From Lachnospiraceae bacterium (lineage in GTDB: Bacteria; Bacillota_A; Clostridia; Lachnospirales; Lachnospiraceae), in assembly GCA_024699595.1 (NCBI GenBank), contig JAILPG010000168.1:1-10018 (forward strand): 10,018 bases of DNA, in the 5' to 3' direction. Positions 800-10,018 of the stretch are shown here, piece by piece; position 1 is the stretch's first letter, and the number at the start of each line of letters is the position of its first letter. Below the pieces are notes generated by a model. That model saw nothing but the letters and a program-made list of their open reading frames with translations, had not been told where the DNA came from and ran no database searches. The position numbers and the translations under genes were made by a program.

Positions 800-2200
800 A
801 TGATCAAAGACAATCAGAGTTTGTTTAACAGATTACATGTGCTGATAGATGCCTTCATTATAGCGGGTGCATACGCTCTTGCATGGTGGTTTAAGTTTAA
901 GAGCGGGCTCGTATCTTATTCTATCGGCCTTCCGACAAAGTATTATTTCAGGGCGCTTTACTATATAATCCCTGTCTATCTGTTTCTGTATTATCAGTTC
1001 AATCTCTACAATTCAAAAAGGGCGTCCGGCAGGAAGAGAGAGCTCTTTAATATCATAAAGGCAAATACGGTTGGCCTTATAGCGATAATGGTCGTGCTCT
1101 ATGTTATCAACCAGCCGCATTTTTCAAGGGAAATGATCCTCATCTTCTGGGCGTTCAATATCTTCCTTGAAACCTTTGTAAGAAACATAATCAGATATAT
1201 CTTAAGATTCATAAGACGCAGAGGCTACAATATCAAATACGTGCTTTTGGTGGGTTATTCAAAATCCGCAGAGAGCTATATCAACAAGATAAGACTTAAT
1301 CCGCAGTGGGGCTATGTCATCCGCGGCATCCTTGATGACAGGGTGGAGCGCGGCAGCATGTACAAGGGCGTCAAGGTACTCGGAAAGATAGACAACCTGT
1401 CCATTATCCTTCCCGAGAACAAGCTTGACGAGATAGCGATAACCCTAAGCCTTTCCGAATACGGAAGACTTGAGGAGATAGTCGCGATGTGTGAAAAATC
1501 CGGCGTACATACCAAGTTCATACCGGATTACTCGGGCATAATCCCGAACAAACCCTATACGGAGGATATTCAGGGCCTTCCCGTCATAAATATCCGGCAT
1601 GTGCCGCTTTCAAATACCTTAAATGCAGTCGCAAAGAGGACGGTAGATATAGTAGGTTCGCTTCTTGCAATCATAATCCTTTCACCTGTGATGCTTGTGA
1701 TATCGATACTCGTAAAGGCATCCTCAAAGGGTCCGGTCTTATTCAAACAGGAAAGAGTGGGTCTTCATAACAGGCCGTTTATGATGTACAAGTTCAGGAC
1801 CATGTATGTGCAGGATGAGCAGGACGAGCAGGAGGGCTGGACAACCAAGGACGATCCGAGAGTTACAAAGGTCGGAAAGGTATTAAGAAGGACAAGTCTT
1901 GATGAACTGCCGCAGTTTTTTAACATAATCGCGGGCAAGATGAGCATAGTGGGACCGCGTCCCGAAAGACCAAATTTTGTGGAACAGTTTACTGAGGAAA
2001 TACCACGCTATAATATCAAGCACCAGGTAAGACCGGGTCTTACCGGCTGGGCACAGATAAACGGCTTAAGGGGAGACACCTCGATAGAGAAGAGAATAGA
2101 ATATGATCTCTATTATATAGAAAACTGGACGATGAGCTTTGATTTTAAGATCATGTTCTTAACCATATTCAGAGGATTTGTGAACGAAAATGCCTACTGA
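800..2200 (+). CDS. Polyprenyl-phosphate sugar-1-phosphate transferase (WcaJ/WbaP type)
   Basis: This enzyme probably moves a hexose-1-phosphate from a UDP-sugar to undecaprenyl phosphate, the first step of building a surface-polysaccharide repeat unit. Its 466 residues match the usual length of the large polytopic members of the family. About four membrane helices lie in residues 13-130. A nucleotide-fold-like region follows (about 145-215, starting YVLLVGYS). A further hydrophobic or re-entrant segment lies at 281-305, and the bacterial sugar transferase domain fills 278-466. Visible signature motifs are FKQERVG (315-321), KFRTM (331-335), the catalytic Asp-Glu pair in SLDELPQ (D368, E369), VGPRPE (384-389) and PGLTGWAQING (412-422). 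The ATG at 800 gives a family-typical N-terminus (MIKDNQSLFNRLHVLID), although the ribosome site is weak and distant (AAGGA, 778-782). Glucose or galactose is the likeliest sugar, but the sequence does not decide it. Confidence 0.95.
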   Translation: MIKDNQSLFNRLHVLIDAFIIAGAYALAWWFKFKSGLVSYSIGLPTKYYFRALYYIIPVYLFLYYQFNLYNSKRASGRKRELFNIIKANTVGLIAIMVVLYVINQPHFSREMILIFWAFNIFLETFVRNIIRYILRFIRRRGYNIKYVLLVGYSKSAESYINKIRLNPQWGYVIRGILDDRVERGSMYKGVKVLGKIDNLSIILPENKLDEIAITLSLSEYGRLEEIVAMCEKSGVHTKFIPDYSGIIPNKPYTEDIQGLPVINIRHVPLSNTLNAVAKRTVDIVGSLLAIIILSPVMLVISILVKASSKGPVLFKQERVGLHNRPFMMYKFRTMYVQDEQDEQEGWTTKDDPRVTKVGKVLRRTSLDELPQFFNIIAGKMSIVGPRPERPNFVEQFTEEIPRYNIKHQVRPGLTGWAQINGLRGDTSIEKRIEYDLYYIENWTMSFDFKIMFLTIFRGFVNENAY

Positions 2201-3185: not shown

Positions 3186-5006
3186 ATGTGCGGAATAGTA
3201 GGATATGTTGGAGATAAGCAGGCAGTACCCGTACTTTTGGAAGGACTTTCCAAGCTTGAGTACAGAGGTTATGATTCCGCCGGAATAGCCGTGATCGAAA
3301 AAAATCACATAAAGGTGGCAAAATGCCAGGGCAGGCTTAAGAATCTTGAGGATAAGCTCGAAGCGGACGGGGTTCCTGACGGACATGTCGGGATCGGCCA
3401 CACAAGATGGGCAACCCATGGAGAGCCCTCGGATATCAATTCCCACCCGCACGGCAATAAGAGGGTATCCATAGTACATAACGGTATAATCGAAAACTAC
3501 AAGCAGATCAAGGACTTTCTCATATCCGAAGGCTACAGCTTTGTCAGCGAAACGGATACGGAGACTGTCGCAAAGCTCATAGATTACTGCTATAACGGAA
3601 ATCCCGTCGAGACTCTTTCAAAGGTCATTGCCCAGATACACGGATCCTATGCGCTCGGGATAATGTTTCGTGATATGCCTGACCGGATCTATGCGGTCAG
3701 GAAGGATTCTCCGCTTATCGTGGGTCTTTCCGAAAAGGAGAATTTCATCGCTTCGGATGTGCCTGCGATCATAAGCTACACAAGGGATTACTACCTGCTT
3801 GAGCAGAACGAGATCGCTGAGATCCGTGCTGACAGGGTTACCATATATGACATAAGGGGCTGCGAGGTTAAAAAAGAAAAGCAGACTGCCGACTGGGATG
3901 TTGAGGCAGCCGAAAAGGGCGGCTATGAGCATTTCATGTTAAAGGAGATACATGAACAGCCCTCTGCGGTGAATATGACGATAACCCCGAGGATCATAGA
4001 CGATCTTCCCGATTTTTCAATGGAAGGAATGCCTCTTGATAAGCTTAAGGATTATGACAGGATACATATAGTTGCCTGCGGTACCGCGATGCATGCCGGA
4101 ATGGTCGGAAAGTACGTGATAGAAAGACTTGCGAGGATACCCGTTATCGTGGATATAGCCTCGGAATTCAGATACCGTGATCCGCTCGTGTCAGAGGGTG
4201 ATCTGGTGATAGTGATATCCCAGTCCGGAGAGACCGAGGATACCAAGCAGGCACTTAAGCTTGCCAAGGAAATGGGTGCACTGACCATGGCCGTTGTAAA
4301 CGTCAAGGGCTCGAGCATTGCAAGAGAAGCGGACATCGTGGTATATACCCATGCGGGACCGGAGATATCGGTAGCCTCGACCAAGGCATATATGGTTCAG
4401 GTATCCGTTATGTATCTGCTTGCCTTTGCTCTTTCCTATGCAAAGGGAAAGATCGACCGTGATACCTGTAAGGATTATATAGCAAAGCTTGGCAGGATGC
4501 CTTCGGTCATCGAGGAAGCGATAAAGCTCCAGGAAAAATGCCAGTATGCCGCAAGCAAACTCTTAAATGCGGACAGCCTTCTGTATATAGGAAGAGGACT
4601 TGATTATGCACTGAGCATGGAGGGATCTCTTAAGCTTAAGGAGATATCCTACATCCATTCCGAATCCTATGCAGCGGGAGAGTTAAAGCACGGGACCATT
4701 TCCCTTATCACGAATGAGATGCCCGTGATCGCTGTTGCCACGCAGAGCAGGCTTGTGGAAAAGACGATAAGCAATATCAAGGAAGTAAAGTCAAGAGGAG
4801 CCTATGTCATCATGATCTGTGATAAGGATGTTGACATTGAAGACGGCGTATGTGACCAGATAATAAGGCTTCCGGAAGCGGATGAGCTCTTAATGCCGAT
4901 GGTCGCAGCAGTGCCTTTGCAGCTCATCGCATATTATACGGCCGTACTTAAAGGCTGTGATGTTGATAAGCCGAGGAACCTCGCAAAATCAGTTACGGTA
5001 GAGTAA
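3186..5006 (+). CDS. glmS: Glutamine--fructose-6-phosphate aminotransferase (isomerizing)
   Basis: GlmS converts fructose-6-phosphate and glutamine to glucosamine-6-phosphate, the committed step toward UDP-GlcNAc for peptidoglycan and surface glycans; it is cytoplasmic. The 606 residues match the family's usual length of about 600. The N-terminal glutaminase domain starts MCGIVGYVG, so Cys2 becomes the nucleophile once Met is removed. It also shows YRGYDSAGIA, HTRWATHGEPSD (72-83), NGIIENY (99-105) and ETDTE (122-126). Two sugar-isomerase (SIS) domains follow, with CGTAMHAG from residue 298, SQSGETEDT near 344-352, SVASTKAY near 395, and the invariant C-terminus DKPRNLAKSVTVE. The gene begins 12 bases after the upstream glycosyltransferase. 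That gap has no room for the roughly 150-base glmS ribozyme that controls many Firmicutes glmS genes. Whether a second glmS exists elsewhere cannot be seen here. Confidence 0.98.
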   Translation: MCGIVGYVGDKQAVPVLLEGLSKLEYRGYDSAGIAVIEKNHIKVAKCQGRLKNLEDKLEADGVPDGHVGIGHTRWATHGEPSDINSHPHGNKRVSIVHNGIIENYKQIKDFLISEGYSFVSETDTETVAKLIDYCYNGNPVETLSKVIAQIHGSYALGIMFRDMPDRIYAVRKDSPLIVGLSEKENFIASDVPAIISYTRDYYLLEQNEIAEIRADRVTIYDIRGCEVKKEKQTADWDVEAAEKGGYEHFMLKEIHEQPSAVNMTITPRIIDDLPDFSMEGMPLDKLKDYDRIHIVACGTAMHAGMVGKYVIERLARIPVIVDIASEFRYRDPLVSEGDLVIVISQSGETEDTKQALKLAKEMGALTMAVVNVKGSSIAREADIVVYTHAGPEISVASTKAYMVQVSVMYLLAFALSYAKGKIDRDTCKDYIAKLGRMPSVIEEAIKLQEKCQYAASKLLNADSLLYIGRGLDYALSMEGSLKLKEISYIHSESYAAGELKHGTISLITNEMPVIAVATQSRLVEKTISNIKEVKSRGAYVIMICDKDVDIEDGVCDQIIRLPEADELLMPMVAAVPLQLIAYYTAVLKGCDVDKPRNLAKSVTVE

Positions 5007-5024: not shown

Positions 5025-6626
5025 ATGGATAATAACGATAAGGAAATAAAATACTGTCAGCTGTGCAGAAGACCTTCGAGTTCCGTAAAGGACATGTTCA
5101 GGCTTTCGGACGAACTCTATGTCTGCTCGGACTGCATGCATAACATGCTTGATTCCCTGACAAGGTTTGCGGGAAACGGTTCCCCTTCAGGCTTTAACCT
5201 TAAGGATATGCCTGATCTTTCAAAGCTTGTGGATCCGAAAAATGCGGATAAGGGAGTTTCTGATAAGCCCGATGCTCCCAAAGAAGGATTTTTTTCGGGC
5301 TTAAAAAAGCAGAAAGAGGATAAGAAGGAACCTGAGGGGGATGAGGAAACAAAGGACGACGGGATCAGCGGCTTTTCGCCCAATTTCTCCTTCCCGGGTG
5401 TCAGCTTTTTAAACATGTCGGATCTTCAGGGCATGCTTTCCGGAAGACCTAAGGTTAAAAAGAAAAAGACCAGTGACCATGTTCCTGAGATTGATATCAA
5501 TAATATCCCGAGACCTGACAGGATAAAGGCCATGCTCGATGAGTACATAGTGGGACAGGACCATGCAAAAAAGGTCATATCCGTTGCCGTATACAACCAT
5601 TACAAGAGGGTTGCCTCAGAGGGAATGGATAAGAGCAGGTTCTCAAAAAGGCTCGAGGGCGTGGAGATCGAAAAATCCAACATGCTGATGATCGGGCCTA
5701 CGGGCTGCGGAAAGACCTATATGGTAAAGACCCTTGCAAAGCTTTTGGATGTGCCTCTTGCGATAGCGGATGCAACCTCCCTTACCGAGGCAGGCTACAT
5801 AGGCGATGACATAGAGAGTGTTGTCACAAAGCTTTTGACTGCGGCCGACAATGATGTTGACAAGGCCGAGACAGGGATAATCTTCATCGATGAGATCGAT
5901 AAGATAGCAAAAAAGAAGAATACGCATACCAGGGATGTCTCCGGTGAGAGCGTGCAGCAGGGGATGCTCAAGCTTCTTGAGGGAAGCGAGATCGAGGTTC
6001 CGGTAGGCTCAAACAGCAAGAATGCCATGGTTCCGATGGCGACCGTGAACACAAGAAACATCCTCTTTATCTGCGGCGGTGCTTTCCCCGATCTTGACGA
6101 GATAATAAAGCAGCGTCTCAGAAAGCAGACGTCGATAGGCTTTAATGCCGAGCTTAAGGATACTCTTGATAAGAGAAAGGATATCCTTAAAGAGGTCACT
6201 GTCGAGGATGTAAAGAAGTTTGGAATGATCCCCGAATTTGTCGGAAGACTGCCCATTTTATTTGCAATGGAGGGTCTTTCCGAGGATATGCTCGTAGAGA
6301 TCCTTAAGGAGCCCAAAAATGCGATAATAAAGCAGTATCAGAAGCTTTTTGCAATAGACGAGGTCGACCTGCAGTTTGACGATGAGGCCCTGCACGAGAT
6401 CGCAAAGAAGGCTCTTGAGCGGGATACGGGTGCCAGAGCGCTTCGGTCGATTATAGAAGAGTTCATGCTTGACATCATGTACGAGATCCCCAAAGATGAC
6501 AGTATCGGCAGAGTAACGATCACAAAGGATTATATCCTGGGTCAGGGCGGTCCTGTTATCGAGCTTCGAGGGATGGACATAAAACATGATGACATTATAG
6601 GGATCAGTGCTTCGGGTATGGCATAG
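5025..6626 (+). CDS. ClpX-like AAA+ unfoldase, divergent, with long charged linker
   Basis: This 533-residue protein resembles ClpX, the ATP-driven ring that unfolds proteins and feeds them to the ClpP peptidase. The N-terminal zinc-binding domain has CQLC (11-14) and CSDC (34-37). A low-complexity, charged linker covers about 50-150; ClpX usually has a short one and totals near 420 residues. The AAA+ part has LDEYIVGQDHAKK (171-183), Walker A GPTGCGKT (224-231), pore loop GYIGDD (257-262; usually GYVGED), Walker B IIFIDE (285-290), RDVSGESVQQ (303-312), sensor 1 region ILFICGG (346-352), arginine finger in FVGRLP (R408) and sensor 2 GARALRSI (469-476). The ClpP-docking IGF is kept (371-373). 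The RKH loop, used by E. coli ClpX to bind substrate tags, reads SKN (331-333). A weak ribosome site (CAGGG, 5013-5017) precedes the ATG. No clpP is adjacent, so this is probably a specialised paralogue rather than the housekeeping ClpX; that is inference. Confidence 0.9.
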   Translation: MDNNDKEIKYCQLCRRPSSSVKDMFRLSDELYVCSDCMHNMLDSLTRFAGNGSPSGFNLKDMPDLSKLVDPKNADKGVSDKPDAPKEGFFSGLKKQKEDKKEPEGDEETKDDGISGFSPNFSFPGVSFLNMSDLQGMLSGRPKVKKKKTSDHVPEIDINNIPRPDRIKAMLDEYIVGQDHAKKVISVAVYNHYKRVASEGMDKSRFSKRLEGVEIEKSNMLMIGPTGCGKTYMVKTLAKLLDVPLAIADATSLTEAGYIGDDIESVVTKLLTAADNDVDKAETGIIFIDEIDKIAKKKNTHTRDVSGESVQQGMLKLLEGSEIEVPVGSNSKNAMVPMATVNTRNILFICGGAFPDLDEIIKQRLRKQTSIGFNAELKDTLDKRKDILKEVTVEDVKKFGMIPEFVGRLPILFAMEGLSEDMLVEILKEPKNAIIKQYQKLFAIDEVDLQFDDEALHEIAKKALERDTGARALRSIIEEFMLDIMYEIPKDDSIGRVTITKDYILGQGGPVIELRGMDIKHDDIIGISASGMA

Positions 6627-6638
6627 GAAAGAGTTGTC

Positions 6639-8138
6639 ATGATCTTTTACAGCTTGAAATTTGTCGTGTTTATGGCGGCAGTCTTTCTCATATACTGGAA
6701 TATACCCCACAGATACAGATGGGCATTGATACTTGCAGCAAATATATGCTTTTATGCCTGTTATGATCTGAGATATCTGATCGTGCTTGTACTTATCACG
6801 GTGATATCGTTCTTTACGGCATTGTATCTGGAGGATAAGCCTCTTTCGAAAAAAAGAAAGGGGCTTTTTGTGATGGGGCTTCTTATGACCCTGTCCTTCC
6901 TCTTCGTGTTCAAATATCTGAACTTTACCTTTTACGGTGTCAGAAAGGTATTATCCTTTATAAGCATTCCAATACAGGAGACGACCCTTAAGCTTATCAT
7001 GCCTGCGGGCATATCCTTTTACACCTTTGAGACCGCAGGTTACCTCATAGATGTATACATGGGAAAAATAAAGGCAGTAAGGCATTTTGGCAAATACGCC
7101 GTATTTGTTTCGTTTTTCCCGAATATCTCATCAGGCCCCATAGAGAGGGCGGGGCATTTTATCCCGCAGCTTGATGAGGAAAAGGTCTTTGATTACGGAA
7201 AGGCTGTTTACGGCAGCAGGCTTCTTTTGTTCGGACTCCTTAAAAAGATCATCTTTGCCGACATGATGGTAAAGTATGTGGATGCGGTCTTTGATAACGT
7301 GACGCAGATGAGAGGTATCTGTTTTGCCTGGGCCACTCTCTTATACACCTTCCAGATCTATTTTGATTTTTCGGGTTATTCGGATATGGCAGTAGGGCTT
7401 GCAAAGCTTTTGGGCTTTGATCTTCTTACCAATTTCAAGAGTCCCTATATGTCATCGAGCATAAAAGAGTTCTGGGGCAGCTGGCATATCTCGCTGTCAA
7501 CGTGGTTTAGGGATTACGTATATATTCCTCTCGGAGGAAACAGGTGCTCAAAGCTTAAGAGGGACAGAAACCTCCTGTTAACCTTTCTTGCATCGGGTCT
7601 CTGGCACGGCGCAAGCTTTACCTTTATCTTCTGGGGCGGGATACACGGTGTGTGCCAGATAATCGAAAACAGGATATCCGAGGCAGTCAGTGCGCTTAAG
7701 AAGGATAAGGCGGGTGCCACGGGACAGAAACCTTCGGGTAATGCTGTTTACGGTGAAAAAGAAGGTGCAAAAGCTGTCGCAGTAAAGATACTTCAGACCG
7801 TTCTTACCTTCCTTATAGTAAGCTATGCCTGGCTCTTCTTCAGGGCCAATTCCATAAGCGAGGCGCTCTATGCAACAAAGAACATGTTTGCGGATCTGTC
7901 TGTTGCTACAGCCATGGCAAACATGAAGATGAGCGACAGATCGGTTCTTAAGACCACCCTTGCGATCGTATTTATCCTTGTCTATGACTTTTTTGCAAAA
8001 AAAAGAGATCTTCTCAAGGAAATGGACAGACTGAAGACTCCGCTTCGGTGGGTCATATATGTTGCAGCCGGAGTACTGGTGGTTGCCTTTGCATCCCACA
8101 GCGGCGGGGCACAGGAGTTCATATATTTCAAATTTTAG
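6639..8138 (+). CDS. MBOAT family O-acyltransferase (AlgI/DltB type)
   Basis: This polytopic membrane enzyme of 499 residues belongs to the MBOAT family, which passes acyl groups (often acetyl) across the membrane to extracellular glycans or teichoic acids. The family signature is clear: SSGPIERAGHFIPQL (164-178), YFDFSGYSDMAVG (241-253), KEFWGSWHISLSTWFRDY (276-293), IPLGGNR (296-302) and SGLWHGASFTFIFWGG (319-334). His323 in LWHG is the expected catalytic histidine; His283 is in the other conserved WH motif. Many hydrophobic segments are spread from residue 4 to the C-terminus. A hydrophilic, lysine- and glycine-rich loop lies at about 345-380, and AWLFFRA at 397-403 is also typical. The ribosome site AGGAAAGAG (6625-6633) overlaps the stop of the upstream gene. 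The next gene encodes an SGNH-like partner, a common pairing for polysaccharide O-acylation systems. The acyl donor and acceptor glycan are unknown. Confidence 0.95.
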   Translation: MIFYSLKFVVFMAAVFLIYWNIPHRYRWALILAANICFYACYDLRYLIVLVLITVISFFTALYLEDKPLSKKRKGLFVMGLLMTLSFLFVFKYLNFTFYGVRKVLSFISIPIQETTLKLIMPAGISFYTFETAGYLIDVYMGKIKAVRHFGKYAVFVSFFPNISSGPIERAGHFIPQLDEEKVFDYGKAVYGSRLLLFGLLKKIIFADMMVKYVDAVFDNVTQMRGICFAWATLLYTFQIYFDFSGYSDMAVGLAKLLGFDLLTNFKSPYMSSSIKEFWGSWHISLSTWFRDYVYIPLGGNRCSKLKRDRNLLLTFLASGLWHGASFTFIFWGGIHGVCQIIENRISEAVSALKKDKAGATGQKPSGNAVYGEKEGAKAVAVKILQTVLTFLIVSYAWLFFRANSISEALYATKNMFADLSVATAMANMKMSDRSVLKTTLAIVFILVYDFFAKKRDLLKEMDRLKTPLRWVIYVAAGVLVVAFASHSGGAQEFIYFKF

Positions 8139-8204: not shown

Positions 8205-8205
8205 G
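8177..8205 (+). promoter_or_regulatory. Hairpin over the start region of the SGNH-like gene
   Basis: The left arm CTTTTAAAGC (8177-8186) pairs with GCTTAAAAAG (8196-8205), giving nine pairs and one A-A mismatch around a nine-base loop. The right arm ends on the G of the GTG start codon, and the only Shine-Dalgarno-like GGGG (8193-8196) lies in the loop and at the stem's closing base. If it forms in mRNA it could limit ribosome access to the gene starting at 8205. It is seen by eye only; the stem is A/T-rich, so stability is modest. It is not an intrinsic terminator, since no T-run follows it. Confidence 0.35.
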
Positions 8206-9242
8206 TGAAAAAATATCTTATAAGACTCTGTATCTTCATATTGATATTGTGCACGGTATTTGCATCGGTCAACATCCTGATCGATCCGTATAATATCTTT
8301 CATTATTCTGCACCCAAAAACAACGGGGTGGAAGCAAACAAGAATTATATAAAGACTAAGTATATCTTAAACAATCCCGATAAATTCGATTCCTTTGTAT
8401 TCGGATCCTCAAGGGCCGGATTTGTAAACACCTATGATATTCCAAACGGCCATTATTACAATATGTGCTGTTCGGAGGCAGTTCCCGCAGAGCATTTAAG
8501 GCTTTTAAAGATCTTCATAAAGAACGGGATCGTACCCAAAAATGTTCTTATCCTGCTTGACGACATCAGCTGTTTCGTGGATCCTGCGCTGCATGACCAG
8601 ATGCTTTACCGCGTGCCCTATCCCGATGATGACATCATTTCAAAGCTTAAGTTCTATTACCGTTACTGCGATCTTATCACCACTATGGATGCAGTAAGGA
8701 TCATGCGTTCCCATATAGATGATGATCCGGATTTTCTTAACAGATACCTTAACTCGGGATCTGAAAGAATGGACAGAAAAGCATCGGAGATCGCGGGAGA
8801 TTTTTCCGAGGGATACTGGGCAGAATATTACAGCCTTCGTACTGATGAGGTCATCTCAGATATAACTGAGATAAAGAAGCTCTGTGATGAGAACGGCATC
8901 AATCTCATCTTTGCCACAAATCCCATGTATTTTAAGACCTATACACTGGGTGTTGAGCAGGGTTATCTTGAGTTTCTTGATGCTCTTTCGAAGGTTACCG
9001 ATTTCTGGAATTTCAGCTCCTATTCCGATATCACGGTGGATACGGCCAATTATTATGAGACCAGCCATTTCACGCCGGATATAGGAAAAATGATGATAGA
9101 TGCGGTATTTAACGGAGCATACGATGAAAGACTGTATTCCCAGGGCTTTGGCGTACATGTGACTGAGGACAACAGGGAAGAATTCATATCCATGATAAAG
9201 AACCAGGCCGGGGAGTTCGGTGTTAAGCGTTATGAGCAGTGA
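8205..9242 (+). CDS. Membrane-anchored SGNH-hydrolase-like protein, MBOAT partner
   Basis: This 345-residue protein is probably an extracytoplasmic partner of the upstream MBOAT enzyme, taking part in acylation of a surface glycan as AlgJ/AlgX- or DltD-like proteins do. Residues 4-24 form one hydrophobic helix after MKK, either a signal anchor or an uncleaved signal peptide. VFGSSRAGF (65-73) matches the nucleophile block, with Ser69 as the likely nucleophile; YYNMCCSEA (84-92) and FATNPMY (236-242) may be the following blocks. YYETSHFTPDIGKMMID (283-299) aligns with the C-terminal block, where His288 is expected and Glu285 stands where Asp is usual. The start is GTG at 8205, because an in-frame TAA at 8199-8201 excludes anything further upstream. 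The ribosome site is weak (GGGG, 8193-8196) and lies in a possible hairpin. The superfamily call rests on short motifs; the substrate is not known. Confidence 0.78.
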   Translation: MKKYLIRLCIFILILCTVFASVNILIDPYNIFHYSAPKNNGVEANKNYIKTKYILNNPDKFDSFVFGSSRAGFVNTYDIPNGHYYNMCCSEAVPAEHLRLLKIFIKNGIVPKNVLILLDDISCFVDPALHDQMLYRVPYPDDDIISKLKFYYRYCDLITTMDAVRIMRSHIDDDPDFLNRYLNSGSERMDRKASEIAGDFSEGYWAEYYSLRTDEVISDITEIKKLCDENGINLIFATNPMYFKTYTLGVEQGYLEFLDALSKVTDFWNFSSYSDITVDTANYYETSHFTPDIGKMMIDAVFNGAYDERLYSQGFGVHVTEDNREEFISMIKNQAGEFGVKRYEQ

Positions 9243-10018
9243 TCTGATTAAGATACTTGATTATGTCTGTATTATAGGTGTTTTTTCTCTGTGGTATCTT
9301 TATGCTTTTGTATTCATGCAGAAGGAAGATGATGATAAGGGAAAGCTTTATAAGCTAAAGAGTGCGTTCCTAAGAATTCATATTCCGGATATCGTATGCT
9401 TCATTATCCTCGGGTTTATAATTCAGATCGCAGGCTCTTATCTTCTTACGGCGGTGCTTACACATCTGGAAAAGGCAGAGGAGTATTCGGCCATCATTTC
9501 AGGCATGATGACCAAAAACCCCTATACCGTGCTGTATGTGTGCTTACTTGGCCCGCTTTGCGAGGAGCTTATGTTCCGGGGTCTGATCTTTTCATATCTT
9601 AAAAAGTTCCTTCCTTTTATCATAGCGGATATCATTCAGGCTCTGGCCTTCGGGATATACCACAGAAATATTTACCAGGGGATCTATGCTTTTATCTTCG
9701 GTATGCTTGTCGGATTTATAAATCATATATATGGATCGCTCTTTCCGTCTGTTATCATCCATCTGATGATCAATATCGCGGGTCTTTATGCAGAGATGCC
9801 ACTGACCGATGCTCTTGGTCAGAATGTTATGGGGATCCTTTCACTCATTCTGGTGATCCTTGGGGGAGCTATCGTGTATTTCATGGTAAAAAAGAACAAA
9901 AACCGGCTAAAGCCTCATTTCATGACATGCCTTATGGTCTTTTGCGCATTCTTTGCATCGGCTGTTTCCTGCCGGATCGTAAGCGTTAATGCGGCGGATC
10001 AGACAGGAAACCATATAA
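9232..10018 (+). CDS. CPBP (CAAX-like) intramembrane protease with C-terminal extension, 3' partial
   Basis: This polytopic protein carries the glutamate and histidine motifs of the CPBP/Abi family of intramembrane metalloproteases, related to eukaryotic Rce1: CEELMFRG (110-117; E111, E112, R116), FGIYH (140-144; H144) and HLMIN (177-181; H177, N181). Hydrophobic segments are seen at about 10-29, 53-77, 98-110, 126-142, 150-168 and 200-219. The ATG at 9232 overlaps the previous gene by 11 bases. The reading frame is still open at the window's end, with 262 codons visible. After the lysine-rich stretch at 220-228, where such proteins often end, comes another hydrophobic helix (231-250) and then VNAADQTGNHI, which resembles a signal peptide leading into a secreted segment. 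In bacteria the family includes proteases for membrane proteins, bacteriocin immunity proteins and members of unknown role; the substrate here is unknown. Confidence 0.88.
   Translation, partial: MSSDLIKILDYVCIIGVFSLWYLYAFVFMQKEDDDKGKLYKLKSAFLRIHIPDIVCFIILGFIIQIAGSYLLTAVLTHLEKAEEYSAIISGMMTKNPYTVLYVCLLGPLCEELMFRGLIFSYLKKFLPFIIADIIQALAFGIYHRNIYQGIYAFIFGMLVGFINHIYGSLFPSVIIHLMINIAGLYAEMPLTDALGQNVMGILSLILVILGGAIVYFMVKKNKNRLKPHFMTCLMVFCAFFASAVSCRIVSVNAADQTGNHI

Follow-up and report, generated by a model that had tools for sequence, protein, structure and literature searches.

The stretch of DNA analysed here (the window; 10,018 nucleotides of contig JAILPG010000168.1 from a Lachnospiraceae bacterium) contains a gene, named ClpXL, that is a real, nearly family-wide second ClpX in which the degron-reading loops have been rewritten; it is apparently old. 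ClpXL is not the housekeeping ClpX. From comparison of the sequences, it is favoured with moderate confidence that ClpXL is an additional unfoldase that recognizes substrates by a code of its own and probably uses the same ClpP as ordinary ClpX. Among the 120 database matches listed, the paralogue was called simply ClpX wherever it was named by the source, so that a nearly family-wide second unfoldase of common gut bacteria is hidden under a plain label.

The gene in the window and the ordinary clpX of its relatives

ClpXL and the genes that define its context are as follows.

800..2200, + strand: WcaJ-type undecaprenyl-phosphate sugar transferase, context (514.1 bits against a cut-off of 410.75)
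3186..5006, + strand: GlmS, context (798.7 bits against a cut-off of 418.05)
5025..6626, + strand: ClpX paralogue ClpXL, open reading frame with an ATG start, 533 amino acids, between glmS and the MBOAT gene
6639..8138, + strand: MBOAT O-acyltransferase (DltB-like), context, from a family search

The product scored 549.5 bits (cut-off 359) and 492.5 bits (cut-off 370.75) against the ClpX equivalog models NCBIfam NF003745 and TIGR00382, respectively, and belongs to the ClpX family; the reading frame and these scores confirmed the ClpX-like gene that the initial annotation had placed between glmS and an MBOAT gene. The order in the window, all on the + strand, is GT2 glycosyltransferase, WcaJ-type transferase, GT2 glycosyltransferase, GlmS, ClpXL, MBOAT, a 345-amino-acid protein and a CPBP protease, with both GT2 enzymes and the transferase upstream of glmS. 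The eight main open reading frames of the window were scanned and ClpP, Tig and Lon were not found among them, in agreement with the description of a paralogue without clpP nearby. The intergenic gaps are 18 nt (glmS–ClpXL) and 12 nt (ClpXL–MBOAT) on the same strand, with no terminator-like site in either junction, which is compatible with the single transcript proposed for this run but is not proof of it.

The 345-amino-acid protein (positions 8205-9242) gave no Pfam or NCBIfam match at an E value of 0.001; its pairing with the MBOAT gene recurs in the loci L036, L051, L055 and L075 with 46-48% identity. The frame of the CPBP (Rce1-like) intramembrane protease (positions 9220-10017) starts inside the end of the preceding frame and is truncated by the end of the window.

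An AlphaFold model of ClpXL was calculated using 30 sequences. The mean pLDDT was 72.8, with higher values for most of the AAA+ core and values below 50 for residues 55-131 of the linker, which is thus modelled at low confidence. All of the 50 matches listed in a Foldseek search of the PDB were ClpX chains, with 6wrf, the ssrA recognition complex, among them.

The search for a second clpX was performed in the genomes of relatives of the window. A genome scan matched 596 stretches, of which 572 encode a relative, and the best 80 of these 572 were taken as the window-like set; most of these loci are recorded as Lachnospiraceae or as genera that we place there, and a few only as 'bacterium' or 'Bacillota'. 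All 20 window-like genomes searched contain an ordinary ClpX (653.5-679.8 bits, frames of 418-453 amino acids) alongside the paralogue (527.7-576 bits, frames of 507-556 amino acids). The best ClpP directly adjoins the ordinary clpX by coordinates in 20 of 20, and no ClpP-family match was found on the contig of the paralogue in these 20 genomes. In the family sample, each of 40 further genomes has ClpP as the gene immediately preceding the ordinary clpX, in the same orientation, the two frames overlapping by at most 23 nt or standing at most 336 nt apart. The paralogue status, for which a second clpX beside clpP had been named as the check, is borne out by both sets. The place beside clpP that marks the housekeeping gene is occupied in the 20 genomes by the other clpX and not by ClpXL.

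One genome (L101; G018:C178) contains a third ClpX, which has the loops of ordinary ClpX (RKH, GYVG) but a very long branch in the tree. Two tandem divergent ClpX-like AAA+ genes are located downstream of the paralogue in L038 (about 17.0-20.2 kb; G016:C65 58623-61281). They scored 244.7 and 283 bits against the ClpX model, lack the zinc finger and GYxG and have other N-terminal parts; one internal stop was marked by the search in one of them.

Distribution, phylogeny and conservation

At least two matches to the ClpX model at E ≤ 1e-60 were obtained in 141 of 150 genomes of the family (Lachnospiraceae), and a profile of the paralogue matched 138 of them at E ≤ 1e-170, 12 being without it at this cut-off. 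In a class-wide draw the paralogue was found in 16 of 391 genomes, at least six of which were also in the family draw. The ordinary ClpX was taken for six class carriers (G415, G514 and G547 were left out), one of which, L224, was not read by the pattern. In all five readable carriers, none of them from the family draw, the ordinary ClpX fell inside the ordinary Lachnospiraceae ClpX clade, on which basis the paralogue looks close to confined to Lachnospiraceae.

The first tree was calculated from 43 of the 81 window-like paralogues, 50 ordinary ClpX (20 from carriers, together with the 30 that scored best in the class draw) and one extra copy; all 43 paralogues lay on one side of a branch with an SH-aLRT value of 100. 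The second tree contained 99 rows including other phyla, with paralogues taken from the window-like set (15 of 81), the other family rows (38 of 72) and the class sample (nine); L241 was not read by the pattern and is missing from it. The 72-row family sample represents 71 genomes (G150 occurs twice), and L142 (G020), from outside the family draw, repeats L077. In the second tree 63 paralogue rows formed one clade (support 100/100), and the branch leading to it is 2.46 changes per column long. ClpXL thus forms a clade of its own with full support, separate from ordinary ClpX, as the initial annotation had supposed. The attachment of this clade among ordinary ClpX is weakly supported (81/68). 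The named outgroup rows are not on one side of a single branch, so that the tree does not fix where the paralogue branched off. In the favoured scenario ClpXL would have a single origin close to or at the root of Lachnospiraceae and have been kept beside the clpP-linked ClpX.

Plasmid records gave 70 matches, all with less than 60% identity and none covering 80% of the query. Six fecal records labelled 'Bacteriophage sp.' (L245, which is MT835487.1, and MT838359, MT837358, MT838159, MT839016 and MT837365) are 58-80% identical to the paralogue; since L245 nests within the Lachnospiraceae paralogues, these records are probably host contigs. A metagenome-assembled genome labelled Muribaculum (Bacteroidota; L048) contains a Lachnospiraceae paralogue with GT2, GlmS and HtrA neighbours and is probably mislabelled or mixed.

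Over the compared core, the paralogue and the ordinary ClpX of the same genome share a mean identity of 52%. Conservation was compared in 40 genomes picked by us from the 138 carriers; these were not chosen by likeness to the window, and the pick excludes the carriers that already had loci, i.e. the highest-scoring ones. The mean pairwise identity of the core was 76.4% for the paralogue versus 72.1% for ordinary ClpX, and in 681 of the 780 genome pairs, which share genomes and are not independent, conservation was higher for the paralogue. In a set of 20 genomes chosen by paralogue similarity, and hence biased, this was the case in 161 of 190 pairs. The paralogue is under strong purifying selection, and conservation above that of ordinary ClpX is not expected of a mere spare copy. 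We therefore regard as unlikely a redundant or stress-time copy of ordinary ClpX acting on the same substrates: the fold and the ATPase motifs are the same in both proteins, as such a copy would require, but a core identity of 52%, fixed changes in all three degron-reading loops (see below) and retention in 138 of 150 genomes argue against it.

Precedents for an additional ClpX were sought in open-licence papers, and no description of a second Lachnospiraceae ClpX was found among the literature matches listed. The nearest precedent among them is provided by the three ClpX of Myxococcus xanthus (PMC11423568, excerpt). ClpX2 and ClpX3 of strain DK1622 are likewise encoded away from clpP, and have separate roles; they are described from one species, whereas ClpXL bears a zinc finger and is nearly family-wide, a distinction that is drawn from the excerpted description alone (PMC11423568). 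ClpI of the Actinomycetota is similarly a lineage-specific class of Clp unfoldase found by bioinformatics, but ClpXL comes from another phylum, and here also the two are set apart by the excerpted description alone (PMC10149685).

Channel loops, probable ClpP docking and linker

The features of ClpXL within the reading frame are listed below, with their occurrence among the 81 window-like paralogues.

5055..5135, + strand: C4 zinc-finger region, Cys 11, 14, 34 and 37 (C-x2-C-x19-C-x2-C in 81/81)
5394..5468, + strand: part of the linker specific to the paralogue, P124...SFLNMSDLQ...KVKKKK148, which includes a polybasic stretch ahead of the AAA+ core
5694..5717, + strand: Walker A, GPTGCGKT (GPTG[CS]GKT in 81/81)
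5793..5804, + strand: pore-1 loop, GYIG replacing GYVG (GYIG in 81/81)
5877..5900, + strand: Walker B, IIFIDEID (I[IV]FIDEID in 81/81)
5904..5930, + strand: pore-2 loop, two residues shorter (nine residues in 81/81 versus 11 in 50/50 ordinary ClpX)
5997..6035, + strand: RKH-equivalent loop, S331-K332-N333 followed by AMVP (SKNAMVP in 79/81)
6135..6143, + strand: IGF ClpP-docking tripeptide, residues 371-373 (IGF in 52, IGY in 26 and MGF in three of 81)
6426..6449, + strand: sensor 2, TGARALRS (GAR in 81/81)

The N-terminal C4 zinc-binding motif of the ClpX family is present, all four cysteines being invariant in the paralogue alignment; the score against Pfam zf-C4_ClpX is 22.3 bits, under the cut-off of 27, so that the zinc-binding domain is divergent. 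The arginine finger is kept in 81 of 81 paralogues and, with Walker A, Walker B and sensor 2, completes an intact set of ATPase motifs. ClpXL resembles ordinary bacterial ClpX in its zinc finger, AAA+ core, Walker A and B motifs, arginine finger, sensor 2 and docking tripeptide, and differs from it in GYIG, the shorter pore-2 loop, SKN, a longer IGF loop with Leu at position 274, a longer and mostly polybasic linker and the lack of an adjoining clpP. Both proteins retain the motifs of the arginine finger and the sensor, and both ClpX types are present in the same genomes, as would suit putative mixed rings in which ClpXL joins ordinary ClpX in hetero-hexamers and shifts their specificity; we consider such rings very improbable. 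As a second unfoldase, ClpXL would form a ClpX-like hexamer.

The changes to the channel loops extend to the 72 rows of the further sample. GYIG was found in 72 of 72, versus GYVG in 50 of 50 ordinary ClpX; the pore-2 loop has nine residues in 70 of 72, the other two not being read; and SKNAMVP was found in 55 of 72. RKHP does not occur in the paralogues (0/81 and 0/72) and is present in 50 of 50 ordinary ClpX. The combination of GYVG and RKH that characterizes the housekeeping, ssrA-degrading ClpX is thus not found in ClpXL.

In the recognition structure of Escherichia coli ClpX the critical contacts to the ssrA degron are made by Tyr153 and Val154 (pore-1), Thr199 and Val202 (pore-2), and Arg228 and His230 (RKH), according to the excerpted text of PMC7652416. 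The substitutions T199A, T199V, V202A and H230A raise KM strongly and T199S about fourfold. Human ClpXP has Leu in place of both Thr199 and His230 and degrades ssrA substrates only once it has been given the pore-2 and RKH loops of E. coli (PMC7652416, excerpt). In the window protein three of the six contacts are altered, Ile154, Ser228 and Asn230 replacing Val154, Arg228 and His230. ClpXL is similar to human mitochondrial ClpX in differing from E. coli at degron-contact positions, but the positions or residues altered (Ile154, Ser228, Asn230 in the window protein) are other ones, and ClpXL coexists with an ordinary ClpX.

With its substrate-gripping loops rewritten, the paralogue probably selects a different set of proteins, and we infer a reduced or altered recognition of ssrA. 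In place of Thr199, 66 of the 81 paralogues have Ser and five have Ala, while ten (including the window) keep Thr; since Ser at this position is mild in E. coli and Tyr153 and Val202 are kept, some binding of ssrA may persist. ssrA-tagged proteins would accordingly be taken less well by ClpXL than by ordinary ClpX, and another class of substrate might be recruited by a terminal motif of another kind or via an adaptor to which the zinc finger and linker bind. The natural loop set of GYIG, short pore-2 and SKN constitutes a ready experiment on the choice of degron by the ClpX channel loops.

The docking tripeptide of the xGF type that is typical of the ClpX family is present, and the IGF at residues 371-373 reported by the initial annotation was found in the window protein. 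The loop around it is modified: all 81 window-like paralogues and all 72 of the further sample have one extra residue in it (distance from GGAF to the tripeptide 16 versus 15 residues), and the position of E. coli Val274 is occupied by Leu in 81 of 81 and 71 of 72, whereas each of the 50 ordinary ClpX has Val or Ile there. In E. coli, changes in the length of the IGF loop and the substitutions I268L, F270L and V274A weaken the binding of ClpP (PMC7112951, excerpt), in view of which the docking of the paralogue on ClpP may be weak or the loop may serve another partner.

ClpX is also known as an unfoldase and assembly factor acting without ClpP. It is possible, although we think it improbable, that ClpXL is mainly such a remodeller, independent of ClpP and with an IGF-like loop that is weak or meant for another partner. 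The extra residue and Leu274, each in 81 of 81, IGY in 26 of 81, the dependence of ClpP binding in E. coli on the loop length and the same side chains (PMC7112951, excerpt) and the lack of a ClpP-family match on the paralogue contig in all 20 genomes would fit this reading. Against it, the tripeptide has stayed [IM]G[FY] in every one of the 81 window-like paralogues and [IMV]G[FY] in all 72 of the further sample across a deep divergence, and no gene for a cytosolic peptidase was linked to the paralogue among the gene families named. Docking of ClpXL on ClpP is therefore judged likely from these residues, and in the favoured reading it would take place on the ClpP of the cell through the modified IGF loop. 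A single ClpP-family match above 100 bits was found in 11 of the 20 genomes, some of these 11 also giving a weak match of 65-75 bits; in these genomes ClpP would be shared by both ClpX. ClpXL may represent a further route to ClpP in Lachnospiraceae, a circumstance that would bear on drugs directed at ClpP and on ssrA-tag tools in this family.

In the ordinary ClpX of the 30 class-draw genomes (L111-L140), the docking tripeptide is MGF in 21 and LGF in four, rather than IGF.

The linker has a median length of 85 residues in the window-like paralogues and 77 in the family sample, compared with 33 in ordinary ClpX. A run of at least three Lys/Arg residues was found in the linker of 76 of 81 and 64 of 72 paralogues, versus none of 50 ordinary ClpX, and a basic run lies within the last 45 linker residues in 140 of 153, compared with a mean of 20.8 in 200 shuffles. 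The motif SFxN was considered as a clade-wide linker feature and dropped: it occurs in 58 of 81 window-like paralogues, but in the family sample only a looser form was found, in 18 of 72 rows, and the polybasic stretch alone is therefore reported as common to both samples.

Neighbouring genes and possible clients

The neighbourhood was compared in 82 rows, comprising the window, 79 loci and the two divergent tandem genes of L038 (from the best 80 of the 572 relatives). Genes were called mechanically; antisense open reading frames displaced the ClpX-like gene in L005 as well as some genes for GlmS and glycosyltransferases, so that counts of presence are lower bounds. Neighbours were named by BLAST against window-like reference sets, with a Pfam check on one or two members.

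GlmS lies immediately upstream of the paralogue in three of 82 rows (the window, L015 and L054) and two genes upstream, with HtrA between, in 29; it is absent from all 40 family-sample stretches. The conserved adjacent glmS–clpX pair suggested earlier was therefore rejected, and the association of GlmS with the paralogue is a loose one among close relatives only. HtrA, which is missing from the run of the window, where GlmS is the adjacent gene, lies immediately upstream on the same strand in 46 of 82 window-like rows. Within 80 window-like stretches, HtrA is present in at least 55, the transferase in at least 49, GlmS in at least 40, an S8 subtilase in at least 38 and LspA in at least 23.

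In the 40 family stretches the next gene upstream is HtrA in 15 (present in 18) or an NAD-dependent DNA ligase in 12 (present in 13). Downstream, an S8 subtilase was found in 19 (12 on the same strand) and LspA in 16 (same strand); LCP occurs in 14, the sugar-phosphate transferase in 12 and MBOAT in seven. Among nine class-sample stretches, HtrA was found in eight, two of which have it as the next gene downstream in the opposite orientation; GlmS was found in one. HtrA is not lost where it is unlinked, being on other contigs in G001, G002, G004 and G011, and the ten genomes searched have one or two close HtrA genes each. The linkage of HtrA to the paralogue looks far beyond chance, as judged from raw counts over related genomes. 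The upstream gene varies between lineages, however, and no single partner is implied; the DNA ligase as next gene upstream in 12 of 40 family stretches likewise makes the link to the envelope a loose one.

The initial annotation had put forward that ClpXL controls an adjoining envelope enzyme, for example GlmS or the sugar-phosphate transferase. The tight same-strand run in the window, with gaps of 18 and 12 nt, and the presence of the two enzymes among window-like loci are in keeping with this proposal. Conservation does not point to GlmS as a client (adjacent in 3/82, absent from 40/40), and the case for the transferase, which occurs in at least 49 of 80 window-like loci, weakens in the family sample (12/40), where the DNA ligase takes the upstream place in 12 of 40. 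For GlmS the proposal is thus not supported, for another neighbouring envelope enzyme it is left as a weak possibility, and overall we regard it as very unlikely. Of the outcomes named beforehand as decisive, the presence of another clpX and the separate clade favour the earlier reading of a distinct paralogue, whereas the varying neighbours oppose the idea concerning GlmS.

Within the favoured reading, the repeated occurrence of HtrA, subtilase and LspA genes near the paralogue is a weak hint that the clients of ClpXL are in envelope or secretory protein quality control. A fuller version is offered tentatively, as one that we hold to be rather doubtful. The family would have split ClpX into an ssrA-type machine and a more constrained second machine, distinguished by a separate degron code and the polybasic linker. 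Both would deliver to one ClpP, and the clients of the second machine would be the membrane or exported leftovers of the extracytoplasmic proteases HtrA, the subtilase and LspA, whose genes are found repeatedly near it. The polybasic linker may in that case hold ClpXL at the membrane or on an acidic adaptor.

In one family stretch (L199), the gene next to the paralogue on the upstream side encodes an S41 protease of the CtpA type, and is itself preceded by ftsX and the gene of an M23 peptidoglycan hydrolase (with a PcsB coiled coil).
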